Shown here: positions 1 through 9,762 of the stretch, one piece after another
Layout: each line of letters begins with the position of its first letter
How positions within the stretch are numbered: the stretch's first letter is position 1
From: Acidobacteriota bacterium
GTDB taxonomy: Bacteria > Acidobacteriota > Thermoanaerobaculia > Multivoradales > Multivoraceae
Assembly: GCA_029263415.1 (NCBI GenBank)
Contig: JAJCXN010000026.1
Span: 1-64,000, forward strand
Length of the DNA stretch: 64,000 nt
Direction of reading: 5' to 3'
Notes under the pieces: generated by a model
The model's input: the letters and a program-made list of their open reading frames with translations, nothing else
The model's database searches: none
Told to the model about the DNA's origin: nothing
Translations under genes and position numbers: made by a program

Positions 1-16
1 TCGAAAGATCTGCGCC

Positions 17-334
17 GTGGTAGCACGGGGCGATCTCTATTGGATGGAGCTCGACAAGCGGCGACCATGCGTTGTTGTTTCAGCGGAAGAGGTCCTCGGC
101 GTTGAAGTTTGGCAAACACATGTCGTTCCCTTGACATCAAATGTCGATAGAGCCGGCATGGCAGGCAACGTGCTTCTGCACTCCGCGGCGACAGGTCTGC
201 CGAAGGACTCCGTTGCCGTGCCACTCGGTCTCGAGCTGGTTGATCGCTCCTGGCTAAGCGAGAGAATAGGTCAACTGCCCCAAGTTCTTCTAGACGACGT
301 CGATCACGGCCTCCGTCTGGTCTTGGGTCTCTGA
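17..334 (+). CDS. MazF/PemK-like mRNA interferase toxin
   Basis: This is a 105-residue protein of normal MazF length. It opens with RGDLYW, followed by RRPCVVVS and the VVPLTSNV strand. Its second half has TGLPKDSVA and a DRSWLSERIG-LP stretch and ends in a GLRLVLGL tail. This order matches MazF/PemK/Kid toxins, which cleave mRNA in the cytoplasm and are neutralised by a small antitoxin encoded just upstream. The start is GTG at 17. A frame ending in TAG at 21-23 (E-R-S-A-P-W-stop) overlaps this start by 7 bases, the usual antitoxin-toxin overlap, but the antitoxin itself lies off the left edge. The toxin family is well supported. The presence of a partner is inferred. Confidence 0.85.
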   Translation: MVARGDLYWMELDKRRPCVVVSAEEVLGVEVWQTHVVPLTSNVDRAGMAGNVLLHSAATGLPKDSVAVPLGLELVDRSWLSERIGQLPQVLLDDVDHGLRLVLGL

Positions 335-708
335 ACCGCGTCTCGGAAGCGCCGGCGCGCCAAAATCTGATGTGGAGGGGGTCCGGACGCCTTGTAGGGA
401 GTGCCGCTTCCCGTGATCCGTTCGCCTCTCACGGAGGCTATGAAGGCGGAACCAGAGAAGTCCCAATCTTCAGGCACGGTCGCGTGCATGTAAACACTTG
501 CTCCGGTGGCATCAGGGCCGGCGAGCTCACTGAGTCGGAACTCGTACTCCAAACGAACGATCCCGTCTCCACGGTCGGGTGGTCCTGCTAGCAGCTCGAG
601 AACACACCCGTTGAGCAGGAGCAGGAGCCGCGTTGCGATTCGTTCATTGATTTCTGATGACCGGTGCTGGGCGCCTACGGGGCGGGCCGCCCGGCGGGCT
701 CTGCAGAC
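304..708 (-). pseudogene. Probable gene remnant, stop-free but without a good start
   Basis: On the minus strand one frame stays open for 135 codons, from just after a TAG at 709-711 down to a stop at 304. It reads like a real protein: INERIATRLLLLLNG, then VRLEYEFRLSELAG, then VPEDWDFSGSAFIASV. There is no ATG, and the first usable start is a TTG at 552, in the middle of the coherent stretch. It lies on the same strand just downstream of the vWA gene, and its tail overlaps the mazF end by about 30 bases. I do not recognise the family. It is either a decayed gene that lost its 5' end or chance open frame in GC-rich DNA. Confidence 0.35.
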
Positions 709-750
709 CTAGTCTGAAGAGCACCGCCTCCGAGCGCTGGGGCTGGGAGG

Positions 751-3603
751 TCACCGCGCCAACATCAGATCGCGCGCCTTGCCGATCAAATCCGCTAACT
801 CCACGACGCGTCGATCGCCAGGGAACTCTGGGATCAGTTGCTGTGCTTCGAGGAAGAGCGAACTCAAGTCGCCCTCGACGTGGGGTGAGACTCGCAAAAG
901 TTCGGCAAAGCGTGCGGTCAAGGTCGCGAGTCGGAGTGAGGGAGTAGTGCTGGCGAACGTGTCAGTGACTGTGTCGACCTGTACCGTCTCCTGGATCTCG
1001 ACTAGCTCCTGGCTGTCGCTCGGTCGGTAGACCAGGGCGATGGTCGCGAGATCGGCACGGCGTCGTGCCGAAGGATAGAGATCAAGTTCGTAGAGCGCCG
1101 TAACCGCGTGGTCTGCACCGATTTCGCCGCCGTCGGTGTTTTTGTTGCGGAATGCAGCGTCCGGGATATCGCGATTTTCGTAACCCACCAGACGGTACTG
1201 GCGCACTACTGCAGGATCGAAGGTGACTTGCACCCGTGCATCCTTGCCAACAGTTTGCAGCGTGCCGGTGAGGTTCTCGACGAACAAGCGACGCGCTTCT
1301 TCCAACCGGTCGACATAGGCGTAGCGTCCGTCGCCACGGTCGGCCAATCGTTCGAGTAGCTCGTCGTTGTAGTTGCCCATGCCAACACCGACTGCGGTCA
1401 GTTCGATGCCGCGAGCGGCCCAGTGGGCAACGTTGCGGAGTAGGGCTTCAGCGTCGGTGAGGCCAACGTTGGCGACACCGTCTGAAAGTAGAAGGACGCG
1501 ATGGTTCCTGGGGATGCGCTTCCAGTCGTCGTTCGCCAAGAGGTTCTCTGACGCCAGTCGGTAGGCGTGTTCCATGCCCTCTTGCAGGTTGGTTGACCCT
1601 TGCGGAAACAGCCGGTCGATGGTGGAGAGGATCGCTGCCTTCTCGGAGCTGTGCTCGAGCAGGACCTGACCTCGTGAGCCGTAGGTAACGATGGCGACGG
1701 TGTCCCTGGGCGTGAGTTCATCCACCAGCAGCCGCAGCGACTGCTTGACGATCTCGATTCGATTCTCTTGTGCCATTGAGCCTGAAGTGTCGACTAAGAA
1801 GGTCAACGCTGTGGGCTTGCGCTGCTGAGCTGTGATCGACTTTGCTTTGACACCAACCCGTAGCCAGGCGCGACGAGTGTCTCCACTGATGTCTCGGCTG
1901 ACGTCACCGTTGCGGTCCGGCCGTTGGGCAGTTGAGTTGCTGTCAACACTGGGCACGGGGTAGGGCGAGAGAGCGCCCTCAGCCGTGATTGCGAAGTCGC
2001 CGCGACGTGGACCTTCGTCCTTGAAGTCGAGCGCGTTCAGAAACTCTTCGACCCGCACCGACTCTGGCGGCGGTAGCGCCCCCCGATTGAGGTAGCTGCG
2101 AGCGATGGTGTAGGAGCCTGTGTCGACGTCGAGACCGAAGGTGGATTCGGCGTCCTCCTTGGGATCGACGAACGGCGAGATGCCGAAGTCACGGAAGTTC
2201 ATTGCGTCGAACTCGGCCAGGGGACGGCGGGGCTGTCCGACGGCATGCCTTGGGTTGACATCGCTGGCGGCGGCATCGGCAACGAAGATCTTTTCGTGGT
2301 CGCCGGAGGCGGCTTCTTTGAGCGATTTGCGCAGGTTCGCCCGACTGGAAATGGGCTCTCCTGGCGCTGGAGGCCGCTTGAATCGAAGCGCGGGCGCGTT
2401 CTTCGTCTCGCTCGGCTTGACGCTGACCGGGCGGGGAGCTGCCGGAGGTGGCGCTGGAGCCGCTGATGCCGCGGCTCCACTTGGCTCCCGAAAGACTGCT
2501 TGTTGACCGCTTTCGCTACCTCCGACATTGACACGATCTACCGGCACCCCGGGCGTCTGGTTGAGTACCGCCCAGGAGTCACGTTTGGTTGGGATCTTGT
2601 CGAGTTCGGCCTGCGTGATCTGAGCTCCTTGCGTGAGCTTTTTCTCGTCCAGGAGTGGGGCTTCGGAGGTGACACTGAGGGACTCCTTCGCAGGAGCGTC
2701 GTGAGGAGCCGGTGGTTCCCGTTCGGGAGAAGGCGTTGTCCCTCTCCTGCCGGGCTCGCTTGCGGCCCCTTTGCTTTTCACCGCGGAGAGGTATCCGAGT
2801 GCACGGAGGTTGCGGACCTCTTCGGCCTTGAGGCCGCTGGGATCTGCGGGCAGTTGACTGGTTGGAGCGATTCCTGCGCTCTCTTCCACGAGGGCGCTCT
2901 TGTCACCAGCGGTTTTTGCCGTCCTGGGCGAATCTGGCTTTGTCTCGGTGGCGGGACGGAGGCCGCGTGGAAGCCGTTGTTGCCGCTGGCGCATTTCTTC
3001 GGCGCCCTCCGAGGGCGTTTCAGAATCGCCAGGCACTTCAGCGAACTGGTCGAAGTCGTAGAAGTTCGGAGACGCGCCAGTGGCGCGCATGTCGGTGATC
3101 GAAACACCGTCGACGAAGAAGTCGCTCTGGTCGCCCCCAGCCGGGGTGAGCATCTCGTCATCGGTCGGCGCGCCCTCCTCGCGGGCGGTCTCCGCCTGTA
3201 GAACCGAAGTGCCTCGATCACTTGTCTCAAGGTCAGAATTCATGAGTTTGACGTTCTGGACCTGTGCCGTTGCATCTGCCAGAACCCCACTCGACGGCTC
3301 TTGCGCTACCGGCCCGTCCGGCAAGCCCATCCGCGACAAGAACCAGCCGGCGCCGACGACCGTCAAGATCGCTGCTGCCGCTCGCAAAGATGGTGACTGC
3401 CACCAGTTCGGCCGCGCTCGTTCGAAGGGAGCGATTGCTGGTTCTTGATCCCAGACCTCTTCATCAACTGCGTTGGCAAGATCGTCCTGGAGTCTGTCCA
3501 GCAGATCGGCAGGTGGCGAGAACGCTTGAACTGCATGCAGCTCGCGTTCGACCGCGTCATTGCGTTGCTTATCGTGATCCTGAGGGGTACTGGTGCTATT
3601 CAT
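751..3603 (-). CDS. Membrane anti-sigma-like protein with von Willebrand A (YfbK-type) domain
   Basis: This 950-residue protein has several parts. Residues 1-70 are a cytoplasmic segment resembling the sigma-binding end of an anti-sigma factor, with one membrane helix at about 71-90. A long Pro/Ala-rich linker runs from 95 to 460. A YfbK-type region (STFGLDVDTGSYTIARSYL, VRVEEFLNALDF) starts near 465. The vWA domain has an intact MIDAS motif DTSGS at 605-609 plus STNLQEG and LLLSDGVANVG. A YfbK/DUF3520-like C-terminus follows. It overlaps the upstream sigma gene as ATGA, so the two are translationally coupled. I infer that it tethers or senses for that sigma factor. The linker carries TonB-plug-like pieces at 162-190 and 308-371 and an LRALGYLS motif near 266, none of which belongs to known vWA proteins. 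Confidence 0.85.
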   Translation of the reverse strand: MNSTSTPQDHDKQRNDAVERELHAVQAFSPPADLLDRLQDDLANAVDEEVWDQEPAIAPFERARPNWWQSPSLRAAAAILTVVGAGWFLSRMGLPDGPVAQEPSSGVLADATAQVQNVKLMNSDLETSDRGTSVLQAETAREEGAPTDDEMLTPAGGDQSDFFVDGVSITDMRATGASPNFYDFDQFAEVPGDSETPSEGAEEMRQRQQRLPRGLRPATETKPDSPRTAKTAGDKSALVEESAGIAPTSQLPADPSGLKAEEVRNLRALGYLSAVKSKGAASEPGRRGTTPSPEREPPAPHDAPAKESLSVTSEAPLLDEKKLTQGAQITQAELDKIPTKRDSWAVLNQTPGVPVDRVNVGGSESGQQAVFREPSGAAASAAPAPPPAAPRPVSVKPSETKNAPALRFKRPPAPGEPISSRANLRKSLKEAASGDHEKIFVADAAASDVNPRHAVGQPRRPLAEFDAMNFRDFGISPFVDPKEDAESTFGLDVDTGSYTIARSYLNRGALPPPESVRVEEFLNALDFKDEGPRRGDFAITAEGALSPYPVPSVDSNSTAQRPDRNGDVSRDISGDTRRAWLRVGVKAKSITAQQRKPTALTFLVDTSGSMAQENRIEIVKQSLRLLVDELTPRDTVAIVTYGSRGQVLLEHSSEKAAILSTIDRLFPQGSTNLQEGMEHAYRLASENLLANDDWKRIPRNHRVLLLSDGVANVGLTDAEALLRNVAHWAARGIELTAVGVGMGNYNDELLERLADRGDGRYAYVDRLEEARRLFVENLTGTLQTVGKDARVQVTFDPAVVRQYRLVGYENRDIPDAAFRNKNTDGGEIGADHAVTALYELDLYPSARRRADLATIALVYRPSDSQELVEIQETVQVDTVTDTFASTTPSLRLATLTARFAELLRVSPHVEGDLSSLFLEAQQLIPEFPGDRRVVELADLIGKARDLMLAR

Positions 3604-4208
3604 GATGCTGTGCCTCCGACGCAGGAGATGGACTTAAGCGAATTCGGTTCGATATCGAGGGCCTTGCCGAGCGTTGAAAGGGCGTTGCGGATCCGTTTTC
3701 GGATGGCGACCGCGCTGACTTGCTCTAGGTTGGCGATCTCGGAGGTGGATAGTTCGCCCCAGAACTTGGCGGTGACTGCGAGCCGTTGTCGGTCGGGCAG
3801 GGCGACCACCGCGCTGCGAAGGCGATCCTCCGACTCGTGTCGACTGATTCGGTGAAGGGCGCCTTCGGCCACTTCCTGTTGCGACTCGAGCTCAGCGGTG
3901 TCCACCGAATAGACGAGGTGTGGGCGACGGATGTGATTGAGGAATGTGGTGTAGGCGATGCGGTACATCCAACTCGAGAACGATGACTCGGCCCGAAAGC
4001 TCCGTAACGAGGTCCAAGCGCGCTTGAATGCGTCTTGGGTCAGGTCGGCGGCAAGGTCGTCGTTGCCGGTGAGCTTGACCAGTGTGCGATAGACCTGGGT
4101 GTAGTTACGTTCGATCAGGCGGTTGCCCGCCGCGCGATCGCCGTCGAGAAGAGCTAGGACCAGATCGCGGTCCGACGGCTCAGTAGATGGATTTGCGTCC
4201 GGCGTCAT
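3600..4208 (-). CDS. ECF RNA polymerase sigma factor
   Basis: This sigma-70 family protein of about 202 residues redirects RNA polymerase to a stress or envelope regulon. Region 2 is visible as LAADLTQDAFKRAW, followed by FSSWMYRIAYTTFLNHIRR. Region 4 is LPDRQRLAVTAKFWGELSTSEIA with the DNA-reading helix VSAVAIRKRIRNAL. ATG at 4208 is chosen because GGAG stands nine bases upstream and the DRDLVLALLDGD core begins shortly after. A GTG at 4262 would add 18 residues but lies inside its own AGGAGGTG. The gene ends inside the start of the vWA protein (ATGA, 3600-3603), the arrangement expected for a sigma and anti-sigma pair. The target promoters are not identifiable from the sequence. Confidence 0.9.
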   Translation of the reverse strand: MTPDANPSTEPSDRDLVLALLDGDRAAGNRLIERNYTQVYRTLVKLTGNDDLAADLTQDAFKRAWTSLRSFRAESSFSSWMYRIAYTTFLNHIRRPHLVYSVDTAELESQQEVAEGALHRISRHESEDRLRSAVVALPDRQRLAVTAKFWGELSTSEIANLEQVSAVAIRKRIRNALSTLGKALDIEPNSLKSISCVGGTAS

Positions 4209-4379
4209 GGTTGGAAACTCCAACAGCGCCGTTGCGTCCGATGTTTCGCCTTCACTGCCCACCTCCTAAGTTGCGGACTAGCTCCAAGGCGCTGGTGCAC
4301 TCCTTGACTGCTAAGTCCGTTTCCCAGTTAGACACTCAACCGTGCGAAGCCGAAACCCTGCTCCAGAAGATTTTTGAAA

Positions 4380-5687
4380 CTAGTTCGCTGGTGCGCTACG
4401 CAACCACGTGAAGCCAGCCGTTTCGTCGAGCAAGAGCGGGGTGACTGCGACCACGCTGCCGTCGGTGAGTACGGCGATGGGGAAGTATTCGCCGCCGGTA
4501 TCGCGTACGGACACCATCTCTTCACCGTTCATGCGCTGGGCAAACAGGTCGAGCTTGAGTGGTTCGCTCAGCTGGGCGCTAGGTGGGCCTGCCGCCGGCA
4601 TCGCGATGCGCGCCACCCTCGCGACCAAAGCGTCTCCACTGTTCTCGAACCAGCTCGCGGCCAGCACGCTGGGCGTACCGCTGCTGACGGCCAAGAAGGG
4701 GAAGAAGACGCGTTCTTGAGCTTCGGTGATCGTCCAGCGCTCCCAAGTGGCACCCAGGTCCTTGGAGCGGGCCAGAAACGCAGTGGTTCCCTCACCCCAG
4801 AAGTGGAACAAAGCACCATTGGTGTCGAAAGCGAGCGGCTCGACCCAGCGTTGGTAGACACTGAACTCCTCTGGCTTGGTCGGCCAGCGCGGCGCTCCCG
4901 GTAGTGGGCGCTGTTGCCAGCTGGCGCCGCCGTCGCTGCTGGTGACGATCAGATCGACGCCCTCGTCGTAGCGATTAGCGGAGGCCGACATCGGCGAGAT
5001 GCGCACCGCCAGTTCCCCATTGGGACCTGTCGCCAGGTGGCTCGAACCGCCAGCGGGGTGAATTCGCGGCTGCTCCTGCCAAGTGACGCCACGGTCTTCG
5101 CTACGTGCATATGACACACCCGCGCCGTCGTTCCAGACGGCGTGTGCGGTTGCATCTGGAGTGATCGCCACCCACGGCCGATCGTCAAACTCGGTTTCGG
5201 AGAGCAAGGTCCATTGCCAGCTCTCGCCGATGTCGTGACTCACGCCCATGGCGATGTGAGTACCTTTGAAGGTGGTCCGGCTAAATCCCATGGTGGCGAA
5301 GTAGAGCGTCCCGTTGGGACCAACTGCCAGATCGACATCGGAATTGCCGATGGCTCCATCTTCAGCCGTGCCCAGGTTGACTGGGTCCCAACTAGCTCCC
5401 TCATCGGTGCTCTTGTAAAGCTGGGGAACCTGCAAGGGGTGGCTTTGATCTGCTGTTTGCGAGCCGTAGCCGGAAACGAACAGGGTGCCGCTGGGGTGCT
5501 CAACGAGAGCCGGTTCGCGCACGACGCCGACCGTGTGGTGTGTTGGTGGTGCGAGCAGGAGCTGAGTGGATCCCGCCTCTGAAACGGGCGTGATCTCTGG
5601 TTCATCAGCGGCGCAAGCAATGTTCAGGACTGACATCGCGGCTACCAGGGTGAAGGAGGCCATGCATCTGCGGTGTGGAATCTTCAT
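4380..5687 (-). CDS. Asp-box (BNR, sialidase-like) beta-propeller lipoprotein
   Basis: The protein has 435 residues from ATG 5687. That start gives a clean lipoprotein signal ending LNIAC, whereas the longer open frame adds 28 residues with no signal character. At least five Asp-box motifs of the S-x-D-x-G-x-S/T-W form are visible (STDEGASW, SHDIGESW, SEDRGVTW, SSDGGASW, SKDLGATW), which build a six- or seven-bladed propeller as in sialidases and photosystem-assembly-like BNR proteins. I do not see the arginine triad needed to call a sialidase, so the substrate is unknown. It probably sits on the outer membrane or periplasmic side. Divergent from the downstream MFS gene, with 112 bases between the two starts. 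Confidence 0.75.
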   Translation of the reverse strand: MKIPHRRCMASFTLVAAMSVLNIACAADEPEITPVSEAGSTQLLLAPPTHHTVGVVREPALVEHPSGTLFVSGYGSQTADQSHPLQVPQLYKSTDEGASWDPVNLGTAEDGAIGNSDVDLAVGPNGTLYFATMGFSRTTFKGTHIAMGVSHDIGESWQWTLLSETEFDDRPWVAITPDATAHAVWNDGAGVSYARSEDRGVTWQEQPRIHPAGGSSHLATGPNGELAVRISPMSASANRYDEGVDLIVTSSDGGASWQQRPLPGAPRWPTKPEEFSVYQRWVEPLAFDTNGALFHFWGEGTTAFLARSKDLGATWERWTITEAQERVFFPFLAVSSGTPSVLAASWFENSGDALVARVARIAMPAAGPPSAQLSEPLKLDLFAQRMNGEEMVSVRDTGGEYFPIAVLTDGSVVAVTPLLLDETAGFTWLRSAPAN

Positions 5688-5799
5688 CCCACCAAAATAG
5701 CAGAGCCTCGCTTCAAACCAAGCATACAGACCTCGGAGACGAGGAACTGGTAGCTTCAACCGGTACTCCAAACGAAATTCTGCAAAGAGGCCGCCGACG

Positions 5800-7071
5800 A
5801 TGAAACCGCCCTTCCGACGTTTGTCGATGATGATGCTCCTGCAATACGCCGTCTGGGGTGTGTGGCTGCCGATCTTGACGCGCTATCTACAAGCACCGCT
5901 CGAATCGGGAGGCCTCGGTTTCACACCGTCTCAGGTCGGTTGGATAGCCGGGCTGGGTGGCTCGATTGGCGCGCTGACCGCTCCATGGATCGCGGGCCAG
6001 TTCGCTGATCGCTATTTTCCGACGCAGAAGTTCCTCGCCTGTTTGCTCTTGATCGGTGGAGTCGCCAAGATCATCACCGCTTACCAGACGAGTTTCGGCG
6101 CCTGGCTGGTGTTGTCCGCTGTGTACAGCGTTGCCTACATGCCGACCCTCGCGTTGTCCAATTCGATGGCCTTTGCGCACCTCGATGACGCCAACCGTCA
6201 GTTTCCCTTCGTTCGGGTCTGGGGGACCATCGGCTGGATCTTGGCGAGCTGGCTGTTCCCGCTGTTTTGGCTGTTGACCGACATCCGCTTGCAGGCAATG
6301 CCGCCGTTCTACACTGGGACCGAGGTCGCAGGTGTCACAGGGCGGCTGGGCGACGCCTTGATCGTCTCCGGCGTGCTGTCGATCCTCTATGCGCTCTATT
6401 GCTTGACTTTGCCGCACACGCCGCCAAAGCGCGACGCGGTGCAAGCGCTCGCTTTCAAGAAGGCTTTCGGTTTGCTGCGTCGCCGCTCCTTCTTGGTGCT
6501 GGTTCTCGCTAGCCTGCCGATCGCGATCATTCATCAGATCTACTTTATTCAGACCGGACCGTTCTTCGGTGATGTGCTCGGGCTTCAGGACAGCCAGATC
6601 GGCCCTGCAATGACCATTGGCCAGTTCGCTGAGATCGCGGTGATGATGCTGACCGGATGGATGCTCTCCAAGCTCGGCTTCCGCTGGGTGATCACGCTGG
6701 GCGCGTTGGCCTACTGTGTTCGCTACGCGATCTTCGCTAGCGCTGCGGAGCTACCCACAGGGTTTGTGGTCAGTAGCCAGTTGTTGCACGGACTCTGCTA
6801 TGCCTGCTTCTTTGCAGCAGCCTTCATCTACGTCGACCGCATCGCCGATGCAGACATCAGGAACTCTGCGCAGACGGTCTTCGGCATCATTATTCTTGGG
6901 CTCGGTCCTGTGCTGTCGAGCACCTTCCTCAGTTGGTTGTCGGGTGTGCTCCCGGAATCCCAATACGCGATTGACTACTCGGGGCTGTGGTGGGTGTGCT
7001 CGCTGGTGGGTCTCGGGACCGCGGTGTTCGTTGCTCTCTTCTTCCGTGATGAGACGATGGAGCAGGCGTGA
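5800..7071 (+). CDS. MFS transporter of the NupG-like nucleoside:H+ symporter family
   Basis: This is a 423-residue inner-membrane protein with about 12 hydrophobic segments. The opening (RLSMMMLLQYAVWGVWLPILTRYL), the GFTPSQVGWI loop, the FADRYFPTQKFLA loop and FPFVRVWGTIGWI are typical of the NupG/XapB branch of the major facilitator superfamily, which imports nucleosides with protons. Homologues of this branch in soil and marine bacteria may carry other substrates, so nucleoside uptake is an inference from family. The stop overlaps the GTG start of the next gene (GTGA), so the two are probably co-translated. No purine or pyrimidine salvage gene is adjacent. Confidence 0.85.
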   Translation: MKPPFRRLSMMMLLQYAVWGVWLPILTRYLQAPLESGGLGFTPSQVGWIAGLGGSIGALTAPWIAGQFADRYFPTQKFLACLLLIGGVAKIITAYQTSFGAWLVLSAVYSVAYMPTLALSNSMAFAHLDDANRQFPFVRVWGTIGWILASWLFPLFWLLTDIRLQAMPPFYTGTEVAGVTGRLGDALIVSGVLSILYALYCLTLPHTPPKRDAVQALAFKKAFGLLRRRSFLVLVLASLPIAIIHQIYFIQTGPFFGDVLGLQDSQIGPAMTIGQFAEIAVMMLTGWMLSKLGFRWVITLGALAYCVRYAIFASAAELPTGFVVSSQLLHGLCYACFFAAAFIYVDRIADADIRNSAQTVFGIIILGLGPVLSSTFLSWLSGVLPESQYAIDYSGLWWVCSLVGLGTAVFVALFFRDETMEQA

Positions 7072-7481
7072 ACTCGGAATCGCAGCGCCGCTGTGGAACT
7101 TGCCTGTGCGGTGAAAACCGATTCGAGGTTGCCGGGCACATCAAGGGGATCGGCCAATGTCACTGCTCGAAGTGTCGGAAGGTGTCGGGCACGGGTGGCA
7201 ACGCAGTCTTCTTGGTGCCAGTGCCACGGTTCAGATGGTTGAGCGAGGACGTCAAGAGGAAGCAGTTTCAGCTGCAGTCAGGGTGGCGTACGTGTCGCTG
7301 CACGGAGTGCGGCAGTCCGCTGCCCGAGAGTCACGATGGCAAGCGGTTCTGGGTTCAGGCGGGTTTGATGGATGAACCGTTGAACACGAAGATCAAGACT
7401 CACATCTTCTGTGGATCTCGGGCGGATTGGGATCAAGAGGCCAACGACGCTCGGCACTTTGACGAGATGATGCTCTCGTGA
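7068..7481 (+). CDS. GFA-family zinc protein (CENP-V/formaldehyde-activating fold)
   Basis: This 137-residue protein carries the full cysteine pattern of the GFA fold: CGTCLCG, then CHCSKCRKVSG, then CRCTECGSPL. In this family one zinc is structural and a second sits at a possible catalytic site. The founding member speeds the reaction of glutathione with formaldehyde, but most homologues have no proven reaction, so I keep the call at family level. The gene begins with GTG inside the TGA of the upstream transporter gene, implying translational coupling. The length is normal for the family and all cysteines are present. Confidence 0.88.
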   Translation: MNSESQRRCGTCLCGENRFEVAGHIKGIGQCHCSKCRKVSGTGGNAVFLVPVPRFRWLSEDVKRKQFQLQSGWRTCRCTECGSPLPESHDGKRFWVQAGLMDEPLNTKIKTHIFCGSRADWDQEANDARHFDEMMLS

Positions 7482-7515
7482 TCTTTGCGTCACTGCTAGT
7501 GAGGAGTCCCGGGTT

Positions 7516-7764
7516 ATGGCGCGGGAGAACTCTGTGATCTGGGCCGCCGTCGCTGGTCTGGTCGTTGTGGTGCTGATTCTGCTGGAAGGTAGGCGCCAGA
7601 CCAAGAAGTACGGCCCGCCGTCCGGATCTGTATCAGGAATCGGCTCCGCGATGCTGGAGCTTCAGAAGGTGCTAGAGCCAGACAAGAAGACAGAGATCTT
7701 GCTCGCCGTTGAGGAGGAATCTGAGACCGCAGAGGCGGGCGAGCCGCCTACACCGCAACCTTAG
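7516..7764 (+). CDS. Small single-pass membrane protein, unknown function
   Basis: This 82-residue protein has an N-terminal hydrophobic helix (IWAAVAGLVVVVLILLEG) followed by a basic RRQTKK stretch, which predicts N-out, C-in topology, and then an acidic, soluble tail rich in Glu and Pro. A good ribosome site (GAGGAG at 7501-7506) stands nine bases before ATG 7516, which argues that it is real. It lies 34 bases after the GFA gene and may belong to the same transcript. The 3' end nearly meets the convergent msrA-like gene. I do not recognise a family. Confidence 0.65.
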   Translation: MARENSVIWAAVAGLVVVVLILLEGRRQTKKYGPPSGSVSGIGSAMLELQKVLEPDKKTEILLAVEEESETAEAGEPPTPQP

Positions 7765-7767
7765 GTA

Positions 7768-8445
7768 CTAGTGGCCGCCGCTCTCCTTGAGCAGGTCGGG
7801 TCGCTTGGCTTGAAAGCGCTTGAAACGGGGTACCGAGACCCCTCGGATGTAGGGTTGGTTCGGATTCTTGTGCTCGTAGTCTTGGTGATATTCCTCGCCG
7901 CGCCAGAACTTCTCGAACTCGGTGATTTCGGCCGCGATGGGATCCTGGTACTGACCGGACGTCTCAAGTGCTGCCTTTGCTTGCTCTGCGACGGTCTTCT
8001 CTTCGGCCGAGCTGTAGAAGATGATGGAACGGTACTGGGGCCCGCGATCGGGACCCTGGCCGTTCACTTGAGTCGGGTTCTGGGAGGCAAAGAACACATC
8101 GACCAGCTGGGCGAACGAAACCACGCTTGCGTCATAGTAGACCTGGACGGCTTCTGAGTGCGAGGTGGCACCGCGAGCAACGTCGTTGTAAGTCGGATTC
8201 TGCTCGGTGCCGCCCGCGTATCCCGAGACTGCCTCATAGACACCTTTGACACTCTCGTAGATCGACTCAACGCACCAGAAGCAGCCAGAGGCGAAGGTGG
8301 CGACACTTGCGTTCTTGGGAATGTCCTTTTCAGCGGGAACTGAGTTGCCGGCCGAAGCAGGGACGCAGCTGACCGCCAAGCCCACCAGAAGGATCGCGGT
8401 GAGGAACTGGCGCGGTACCGAGCGCGAGGAAGTGGAACTGGTCAT
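7768..8445 (-). CDS. msrA: Exported peptide methionine sulfoxide reductase A
   Basis: The enzyme reduces methionine-S-sulfoxide in proteins. It has 225 residues, with an N-terminal export signal (FLTAILLVGLAVSC) and the mature MsrA core from about residue 47. The catalytic motif GCFWC (54-58) is intact, followed by VSGYAGG, HSEAVQVYYD, the GPQYRSIIFY strand and EEYHQDY, all hallmark MsrA elements. The marginal lipobox around Cys27 means it could be a lipoprotein or be cleaved by signal peptidase I. Either way it acts outside the cytoplasm, unlike E. coli MsrA. No MsrB domain is fused or adjacent. Confidence 0.95.
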   Translation of the reverse strand: MTSSTSSRSVPRQFLTAILLVGLAVSCVPASAGNSVPAEKDIPKNASVATFASGCFWCVESIYESVKGVYEAVSGYAGGTEQNPTYNDVARGATSHSEAVQVYYDASVVSFAQLVDVFFASQNPTQVNGQGPDRGPQYRSIIFYSSAEEKTVAEQAKAALETSGQYQDPIAAEITEFEKFWRGEEYHQDYEHKNPNQPYIRGVSVPRFKRFQAKRPDLLKESGGH

Positions 8446-8850
8446 GGATGGCGAGCCTCTTGAAGAGAGTATGGGATCTGGAGAAGGGTGGGCGCGGCGT
8501 GTTCTCGCAGCGACTGCGACGACTGTCTCGGTGTGTACGATGGGGCGTCGGGGTTGGCCTTACGGAAGCTGAACCCAGGCCACAACGTGTGACTTCCCCT
8601 TCGGTCTGATGGTAGCAACCCAGGTCCAGCAAGCTCCCTGAGCGGTGCGAACGGCGGTCGGCAGTAGATGTGTTTGGCCCTGTCTGCTCGCTACAATGTG
8701 TTGTCGCGGGCTGCTTGCTCGATACTGTGGCGTCTACGGAAGTTGCCGCTAGGCTCCCTCAACGAACCAAACTAACGGATTCCTGGGTCCTCGAATAGAT
8801 CGCGACCCAAACGCTCAAGCAATCAAAGCTCCTGAAAGGTGTTGACTCCA
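8446..8850. other. 405-base intergenic region between divergent genes
   Basis: This gap separates the divergent msrA (minus) and metallo-beta-lactamase-fold (plus) genes and should hold both promoters. A TACAAT box at 8692-8697 is a candidate -10 element, but no convincing -35 hexamer sits at the right distance. I see no credible open frame, RNA gene, hairpin terminator or repeat here. Confidence 0.4.
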
Positions 8851-9762
8851 ATGACTGCAATCTCCACTCCAAGTGGGATCGTTCGATCCCTTCGCCCGGT
8901 ACAGCTCGCCCTTGCGATCAGCGCATGCCTCTCGGTGGCGTCAGTTGGGGTGGCCCAACGCGATATGTCGTCAGTTGAAATGAAGGCAGAGCATGTCGCT
9001 GGCAAGGTTCACATGATCACCGGTGCGGGCGGCAACATTGGGGTCTCAGCTGGCGACGACGGCATCTTGTTCATCGACGATCAGTTTGCACCGCTTGCCG
9101 ACAAGATTCGCGCAGCCATCAAGGGTATCCACGCTGGCGATCTCGAATACCTCATCAACACCCACTTTCACGGTGATCACACCGGATCGAATGCGATCTT
9201 TGGTGAGGACGCGACCATCGTTGCACACGAGAATGTTCGGGTTCGGTTGTCCAGCCCCGACAACCGCGGGGGCGCGGCGCCAGCCAGTGCCTTGCCAGTC
9301 ATTACCTTCGACGACGGGCTCTCGATCTTCTTCAATGGCGAACGCGTGCGTGTCACCCATTTGCCCACCGGGCACACCGACGGTGATAGCTACATCTACT
9401 TCGAAGACTCGAAAGTGGCGCACCTAGGCGACCATTTCTTCGTCGGTCGTTTCCCGTATGTTGATGTTGGTAACGGAGGCAACGCAGAGGGCTTGAGGAG
9501 CAATATCGAAATGCTGTTGAAGAGCCTGCCGGCGGGAACCAAGATCATTCCGGGGCACGGGCCGCTAGCCGATCTGGGTGACCTCAAGGAGTACTTCTCT
9601 ATGCTCAACGACACCATCGGCATGGTCAAGCAAGCGAAGAGCGCCGGCAAATCCCTGGCTGATGTGCAAAAGCAGGGGTTTGGCGAGAAGTACAAAGAGT
9701 GGGGCTCAGGCTTCATCAACTCGGATGCGTGGACGGAGATCATCTTCTCGAGCCTCAACTAA
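8851..9762 (+). CDS. Secreted metallo-beta-lactamase-fold hydrolase
   Basis: The protein has 303 residues from ATG 8851, chosen because AAAGG stands about eleven bases upstream. An in-frame GTG at 8839 sits on that ribosome site. A signal peptide (VQLALAISACLSVASVGVAQ) predicts export. The zinc signature NTHFHGDHTGSN lies at about 103-114, with further ligands in PTGHTDGD, AHLGDHFF and the final PGHG. The closest themes are exported MBL-fold enzymes such as B3/QuinolinaseB-like or SoxH-like proteins. I cannot assign the substrate. It is followed after 54 bases by a PQQ-propeller gene on the same strand. Confidence 0.85.
   Translation: MTAISTPSGIVRSLRPVQLALAISACLSVASVGVAQRDMSSVEMKAEHVAGKVHMITGAGGNIGVSAGDDGILFIDDQFAPLADKIRAAIKGIHAGDLEYLINTHFHGDHTGSNAIFGEDATIVAHENVRVRLSSPDNRGGAAPASALPVITFDDGLSIFFNGERVRVTHLPTGHTDGDSYIYFEDSKVAHLGDHFFVGRFPYVDVGNGGNAEGLRSNIEMLLKSLPAGTKIIPGHGPLADLGDLKEYFSMLNDTIGMVKQAKSAGKSLADVQKQGFGEKYKEWGSGFINSDAWTEIIFSSLN

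Follow-up and report, generated by a model that had tools for sequence, protein, structure and literature searches.

How did two pieces of a TonB-dependent receptor come to lie, in the wrong order, inside the linker of a vWA protein, and do they do anything there? We addressed this question in a 64,000-nucleotide stretch of DNA from an Acidobacteriota bacterium (contig JAJCXN010000026.1; hereafter the window, from the genome that we call G000), where an open frame of 950 codons encodes a YfbK-type vWA protein. The features on which the argument draws are the following.

751-3603, minus strand: vWA/YfbK-type protein, 950 aa (open reading frame [ORF], Pfam matches over cut-off, AlphaFold core)
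769-2208, minus strand: vWF_A, VWA and YfbK_C core (Pfam), with the MIDAS DTSGS at residues 605-609
2224-3330, minus strand: predicted disordered periplasmic linker, residues 92-460 (pLDDT mostly under 50 in the model)
2485-2682, minus strand: segment 1, a TonB-box-like stretch plus plug start, residues 308-373 (76-79% amino acid identity to three receptors of the same genome)
2662-2685, minus strand: putative TonB box ESLSVTSE, residues 307-314 (aligns with EVLTVTSE and ETITVTSE of the receptors)
2788-2808, minus strand: LRALGYL motif, residues 266-272, between the two receptor pieces (recurs in linkers of the class)
3033-3138, minus strand: segment 2, receptor plug stretch GGxQxDFxVDGVSITDMRATGASPxxYDFDQFAEx, residues 156-190 (90% DNA identity to the receptor gene on contig C11 of G000)
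3331-3393, minus strand: transmembrane (TM) helix, residues ~71-91 (hydropathy peak; helix 71-91 in the model)
3475-3516, minus strand: cytoplasmic motif PPADLLDRLQDDLA, residues 30-43 (variant of the class motif PPxxLLxxIxxxIP)
3600-4262, minus strand: ECF sigma factor gene (Sigma70_r2 and r4_2 over the Pfam cut-off)

Both linker pieces are 76-84% identical at the amino acid level to three TonB-dependent receptors encoded in the same genome, whose type is consistent with Acidobacteriota. Joined in receptor order, the two segments made a query of 100 residues that aligned end to end with three receptor ORFs of G000 (1056, 1030 and 1011 aa) at 78-80% identity, with E values of 1e-46 to 1e-47; against the window ORF the same query gave only two separate matches, in reversed order. 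Local alignment to a receptor scored 274 for segment 1 and 157 for segment 2, while the best of 1000 shuffles reached 72 and 44, respectively. Scores so far above the shuffles exclude chance similarity, and on these alignments the receptor origin of both pieces is secure. The initial annotation had proposed two receptor-like segments with segment 2 ahead of segment 1, to be judged against shuffled sequences, and on each of these points it is borne out. It had also held that neither piece could form a plug. We agree, because no Pfam match to the Plug domain (PF07715) was found in the window protein up to an E value of 1, and because residues 92-460 are predicted to be disordered. A C-terminal beta-barrel likewise gave no Pfam match, the C terminus of the protein being vWA/YfbK_C. 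The distinctive part of the borrowed sequence is the TonB box with the start of the plug, and ESLSVTSE may act as a TonB box.

The rest of the protein places it in a known family. Pfam matches to vWF_A (PF12450; residues 466-548), VWA (600-767) and YfbK_C (PF12034; 780-910) all exceed the curated cut-offs and stand in the order of YfbK-type proteins, while residues 1-465 have no Pfam match of any kind. The AlphaFold model consists of two N-terminal helices, the helix 71-91 (the TM sequence is AAAILTVVGAGWFLSRMGL), the linker and then a confident core, with pLDDT mostly over 90 across residues 466-950. A fold search with this core returned the archaeal Sec23/24-like ArnA/ArnB, a bacterial vWA protein and the inter-alpha-inhibitor heavy chain.

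The TGA stop codon of the ECF sigma factor gene overlaps the vWA start codon by four bases (ATGA, read from the sequence). Such linkage is usual in the class: a sigma-like ORF lies upstream of the vWA gene in 65 of 72 uncut loci, these being the loci long enough to tell and including some genes fetched twice, compared with 6 of 73 loci in other phyla by the same search. The window protein has the single TM helix and the cytoplasmic part of a membrane anti-sigma factor, and it is co-encoded with an ECF sigma gene, as such factors are; in residues 1-70 Pfam recognised no anti-sigma domain. The strict form of the motif PPxxLLxxIxxxIP occurs in 36 of 77 class proteins, 16-40 residues ahead of the strongest hydrophobic stretch (the TM helix), and the motif and its window variant are a candidate sigma contact. 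The vWA protein is probably the membrane-anchored partner of the overlapping stress-type ECF sigma factor, and we infer that it acts as an anti-sigma factor.

We then dated the two pieces against the receptors. The DNA of segment 2 (window positions 3138-3033) is 90% identical to the C11 receptor gene, with abrupt edges in both directions; the codon is the same at 22 of 25 identical residues, where codon usage predicts 48%, and dS is 0.17. Segment 1 presents a very different picture. Its codon agreement with the receptors of its own genome at identical residues is 0.43-0.51 (chance, 0.41), third positions are at chance, and dS is 1.7-2.1, which is synonymously saturated, with dN/dS of 0.08-0.10. 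This saturation points to an old separation from the known receptors. Substitutions at sites invariant among the sampled receptors (PTARDPW to PTKRDSW, GGNESG to GGSESG) further show that the window piece has been outside a receptor for some time. As the receptors are equally saturated against one another (L053 to L055, dS 2.1), loss of the true donor gene could give segment 1 on the vWA side the look of constraint, and the saturated dS could also have arisen in this way. The initial annotation had taken the pieces to be borrowed from a receptor gene and then rearranged. The borrowing stands, the source being a receptor gene of the type found in the same genome, but a single rearranged block does not fit dS values of 1.7-2.1 and 0.17, which indicate that the acquisition of the two pieces, or at any rate their latest overwriting, lay far apart in time. 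The swap is therefore best read as two events. Most simply, segment 1 would have been captured early, and segment 2 would have entered later and independently, by a paste or a conversion at a site upstream of segment 1.

To see how far the pieces recur, we searched 148 genomes of the same class for the vWF_A family, which is present in 83. A profile of the receptors' box region matched 24 of 91 non-redundant class linkers, the window's left out, at p<=0.005, where about 0.5 would be expected. This profile looks only for the box. In an open comparison of 92 class linkers (window included) with 26 receptor ORFs, receptor sequence was found in 25 linkers, all of it within -126 to +121 residues of the box, and no match fell in the following 550-880 residues of receptor plug and barrel. 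About 19 of the 25 linkers also span the box; part of the matches are the CarboxypepD_reg domain, itself a common domain and present in 19 of the 91 class linkers. The remaining 67 of the 92 linkers have no detectable receptor piece, so the piece is not essential to the family.

Where the pieces do occur, they follow the genome in which they are found. Segment 1 of the window groups in a tree with the G000 receptors (87/76 with that on C11), and the vWA pieces of G087 and G088 group with receptors of their own genomes (94/98). In G015 the linker has APVVDVTSAVVGQEIT and the receptors have SPVVDVTSALVGQEIT. These comparisons indicate that the linker pieces of G000, G015 and G087/G088 resemble the receptors of their own genomes. 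Other vWA proteins with the same swapped order, an idea raised by the initial annotation, did not turn up: the window's is the only such case among the linkers sampled, and in G088 segment 1 comes first and a worn segment 2 (NWAAEGVTVTDPRAIAASPSY) after it, that is, in receptor order. In G087 the piece stops at VDRVNVGG, from which the sequence passes directly into the conserved stretch leading to the core. For the window protein we also considered, and rejected (p 0.21), a concealed remainder of segment 2 downstream of segment 1.

The linkers share at least one other short motif. LRALGYL/V is present in 10 of 91 class linkers, where shuffles predict 0.02, and a search of G000 for another source of the LRALGYL stretch found none. 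A similar ATLGYL occurs in the L234 ORF, in an upstream part that looks sulfatase-like.

Is segment 1 maintained? Orthologues for this comparison come from genera other than that of the window genome. G087 and G088, which are congeneric with each other, both carry segment 1 in the orthologous vWA gene, and between them (L189 versus L190) dN/dS is 0.21 for segment 1 and 0.54 for the rest of the linker, compared with 0.22 for the cytoplasmic and TM part and 0.13 for the core (only the part covered by G087). In three members of another genus the TonB-box stretch is kept while the linker around it, including a whole CarboxypepD_reg domain, differs. These data suggest that segment 1 likely has a selected function.

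The same piece also appears in other envelope proteins. An alpha-2-macroglobulin-like ORF of 2196 aa in G000 carries AITVTSESPMLDERRLSQGAQVTQTELEKMPTAEDPW just before the conserved ETAFWHPHLL segment; its locus is G000:C41:95278-96372 (L052, L006, L265), and the piece lies at the presumed bait region. Among 28 other alpha-2-macroglobulin orthologues examined, one has its own version of the piece (L280, G089), and L279 is weak. A VIT-domain ORF of 559 aa, on the minus strand of L056 (G016:C77), carries ITVSAEPPLHYERRISTGATVTQAELAKIPTDRDP and, further on, YYSYDVFEEM, which matches the end of receptor segment 2. The initial annotation had counted the same linker in unrelated proteins as evidence against itself. 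This objection holds in part, for segment 1 alone, in the alpha-2-macroglobulin-like and VIT-domain ORFs, and the presence of segment 1 in unrelated proteins widens the finding rather than removing it. In the literature we found no account of vWA or alpha-2-macroglobulin proteins that contain a plug or a TonB box, the nearest report being that of PMC12204202.

Among 78 vWA linkers from other phyla, 13 contain CarboxypepD_reg and 3 contain Plug. One example is a Chitinophagaceae gene pair (L112, 460-3604) in which an ECF-like sigma ORF overlaps the start of the vWA gene, and the encoded protein has a cytoplasmic stub, a TM helix, CarboxypepD_reg, a full-length Plug match, vWF_A, VWA and YfbK_C. 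Two Flavobacterium vWA proteins also exceed the Plug cut-off, and box-like stretches following the pattern LDSxxVTGxRV occur in two proteins of Xanthomonadaceae. The box profile itself gave zero matches in other phyla, but it was built from receptors of the class, so this is no evidence of absence there; by eye, boxes typical of their lineages are seen in L112, L113, L127, L135 and L145.

With these results we can place the window protein among known systems. It resembles YfbK-type proteins in its complete core and intact MIDAS and differs from them in its long N-terminal extension with a TM helix, its overlap with an ECF sigma gene and its receptor-derived pieces. The latter match the TonB-box/plug region of the Oar-like, CarboxypepD_reg-containing receptors of its own genome, but unlike those receptors the protein has no barrel, and its plug sequence is incomplete, swapped and without a Plug match. 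With the FecR/FoxR/PupR anti-sigma factors it has in common an ECF sigma neighbour, a single TM helix and a periplasmic part related to receptor N termini. In known cell-surface signalling, the anti-sigma factor and the receptor have the STN domain type in common, FoxR and PupR carrying an STN-like domain (PMC11637429). In the window protein the shared element would be the putative TonB box and plug start instead, its periplasmic part having no Pfam match to an STN-like domain, and it also differs from the FecR type in lacking a known anti-sigma domain and in having a vWA core where FecR has its C-terminal domain. A role as force transducers has been proposed for certain vWA proteins with a TM anchor (PMC12204202), and these likewise combine a TM helix, a disordered linker and a YfbK-like vWA fold. 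However, the window TM helix lacks the SHLS motif used for those proteins, and the neighbour recognised for the window gene is a sigma gene, where they have tolQ/exbB-like genes (PMC12204202); none of the latter was recognised by eye among the ORFs of window positions 1-9000, the contig starting 750 bases past the gene end. Similar in layout are the Bacteroidota proteins L112, L113 and L145, in which a receptor N-terminal module precedes the same vWA/YfbK core, L112 also having the overlapping ECF sigma gene; unlike in the window protein, the plug region is longer and keeps receptor order (in L112 it is full length), and the TonB box is of the SusC type.

We tentatively prefer a model in which the linker carries a captured and selected TonB-box docking peptide in a regulator of the overlapping ECF sigma factor, with segment 2 pasted in later. 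The N-terminal cytoplasmic stub would hold the sigma factor, and the TM helix would lead through the disordered periplasmic linker to the vWA/YfbK core. The TonB box and plug start would be an ancient capture from TonB-dependent receptors of the same cell, and selection would keep segment 1 as a docking peptide, most likely for TonB or for a reader of receptor N termini, leaving the sigma factor tuned to TonB or receptor traffic. Much later, the C11 receptor gene would have supplied segment 2, either as a fresh copy or through gene conversion over sequence already there; as it would have landed upstream of segment 1, the order would have come to be swapped. Binding of the linker box to TonB is possible given the eleven TonB_C matches in G000 (one within a 754-aa ORF), and a signal may flow from the box to the sigma factor. 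It is plausible that segment 1 is a binding peptide that mimics receptors, as the initial annotation had suggested. Against the model weigh the 67 class linkers with no receptor piece, the substitutions at receptor-invariant sites in the window piece, the alternative of a lost donor for the saturated dS of segment 1, and the failure of Pfam to recognise an anti-sigma domain. A more specific version, which we consider rather unlikely as a whole, has TonB engaging the vWA box in competition with receptors and thereby releasing or holding the sigma factor, with such boxes shared by vWA, alpha-2-macroglobulin and VIT proteins in several phyla.

The main challenge to a docking peptide comes from the possibility, somewhat unlikely in our judgment, that the pieces are neutral filler: in a permissive linker, stretches of multi-copy receptor genes would be pasted by recombination or gene conversion, without function and in no meaningful order. 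The absence of the pieces from most orthologues and their worn state in many favour this, as do the fast divergence of the linkers, the sharp edges of segment 2 as a recent 105-bp paste and the recurrence of further short motifs such as LRALGYL. However, filler drawn at random from receptors would not be expected to come entirely from around the TonB box and never from the much longer barrel; nor does it explain the constraint on segment 1 in orthologues (dN/dS 0.21 versus 0.54), where the box is the best-kept part, or the return of the same piece in other envelope proteins. Confinement to the box region, together with constraint, is what leads us to favour function.

We also weighed one ancient fusion, by which an ancestral vWA protein received a whole receptor N terminus (CarboxypepD_reg, TonB box and plug) that then decayed lineage by lineage and was refreshed by gene conversion, the window order arising by local duplication and loss. 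CarboxypepD_reg and Plug in linkers of the class and of other phyla would suit such a history, as would the receptor order in G088 and the G087 piece, which ends as though a longer plug had been cut; but the pieces follow the receptors of their own genomes and the window protein retains no segment 2 after segment 1, and we regard this history as distinctly unlikely. That one piece occurs in three kinds of envelope protein could instead mean that, through a receptor-like start, they interact with a receptor of the Oar type, or with partners of it, in order to be secreted or placed at the surface, rather than TonB signalling; in Myxococcus, secretion of the protease PopC needs an Oar TonB-dependent transporter (PMC6434023). 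Such a sorting tag is very improbable, given the TM anchor and the sigma partner of the vWA protein and with nothing to link the piece to secretion. Least credible of all is that the receptor-like stretch serves as bait for a protease directed at receptor plugs: 2 of 29 alpha-2-macroglobulin orthologues do have the piece in the variable stretch just before the conserved RxxFxETAFW, the presumed bait region, but these are two clear cases only and no such protease has been identified.

TonB boxes are known from outer-membrane receptors and from imported bacteriocins such as the group B colicins. If the docking-peptide model is true, the TonB system would gain a second class of client, and the inner membrane would be a place where TonB load can be sensed. 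For the widespread YfbK-type vWA proteins, recurrent TonB boxes in those linked to sigma genes offer a testable lead on their role. More generally, the data show that short receptor segments move between unrelated envelope genes.

Two further observations relate to the vWA gene. A partial copy of its C-terminal part (residues 788-950, 90% identity) lies at G000:C37:225085-225573 (L049), with an in-frame TAA near the start and no linker sequence found there. Adjoining the end of the vWA gene in the window is a small ORF on the plus strand (17-334), which by eye looks PemK/MazF-like.
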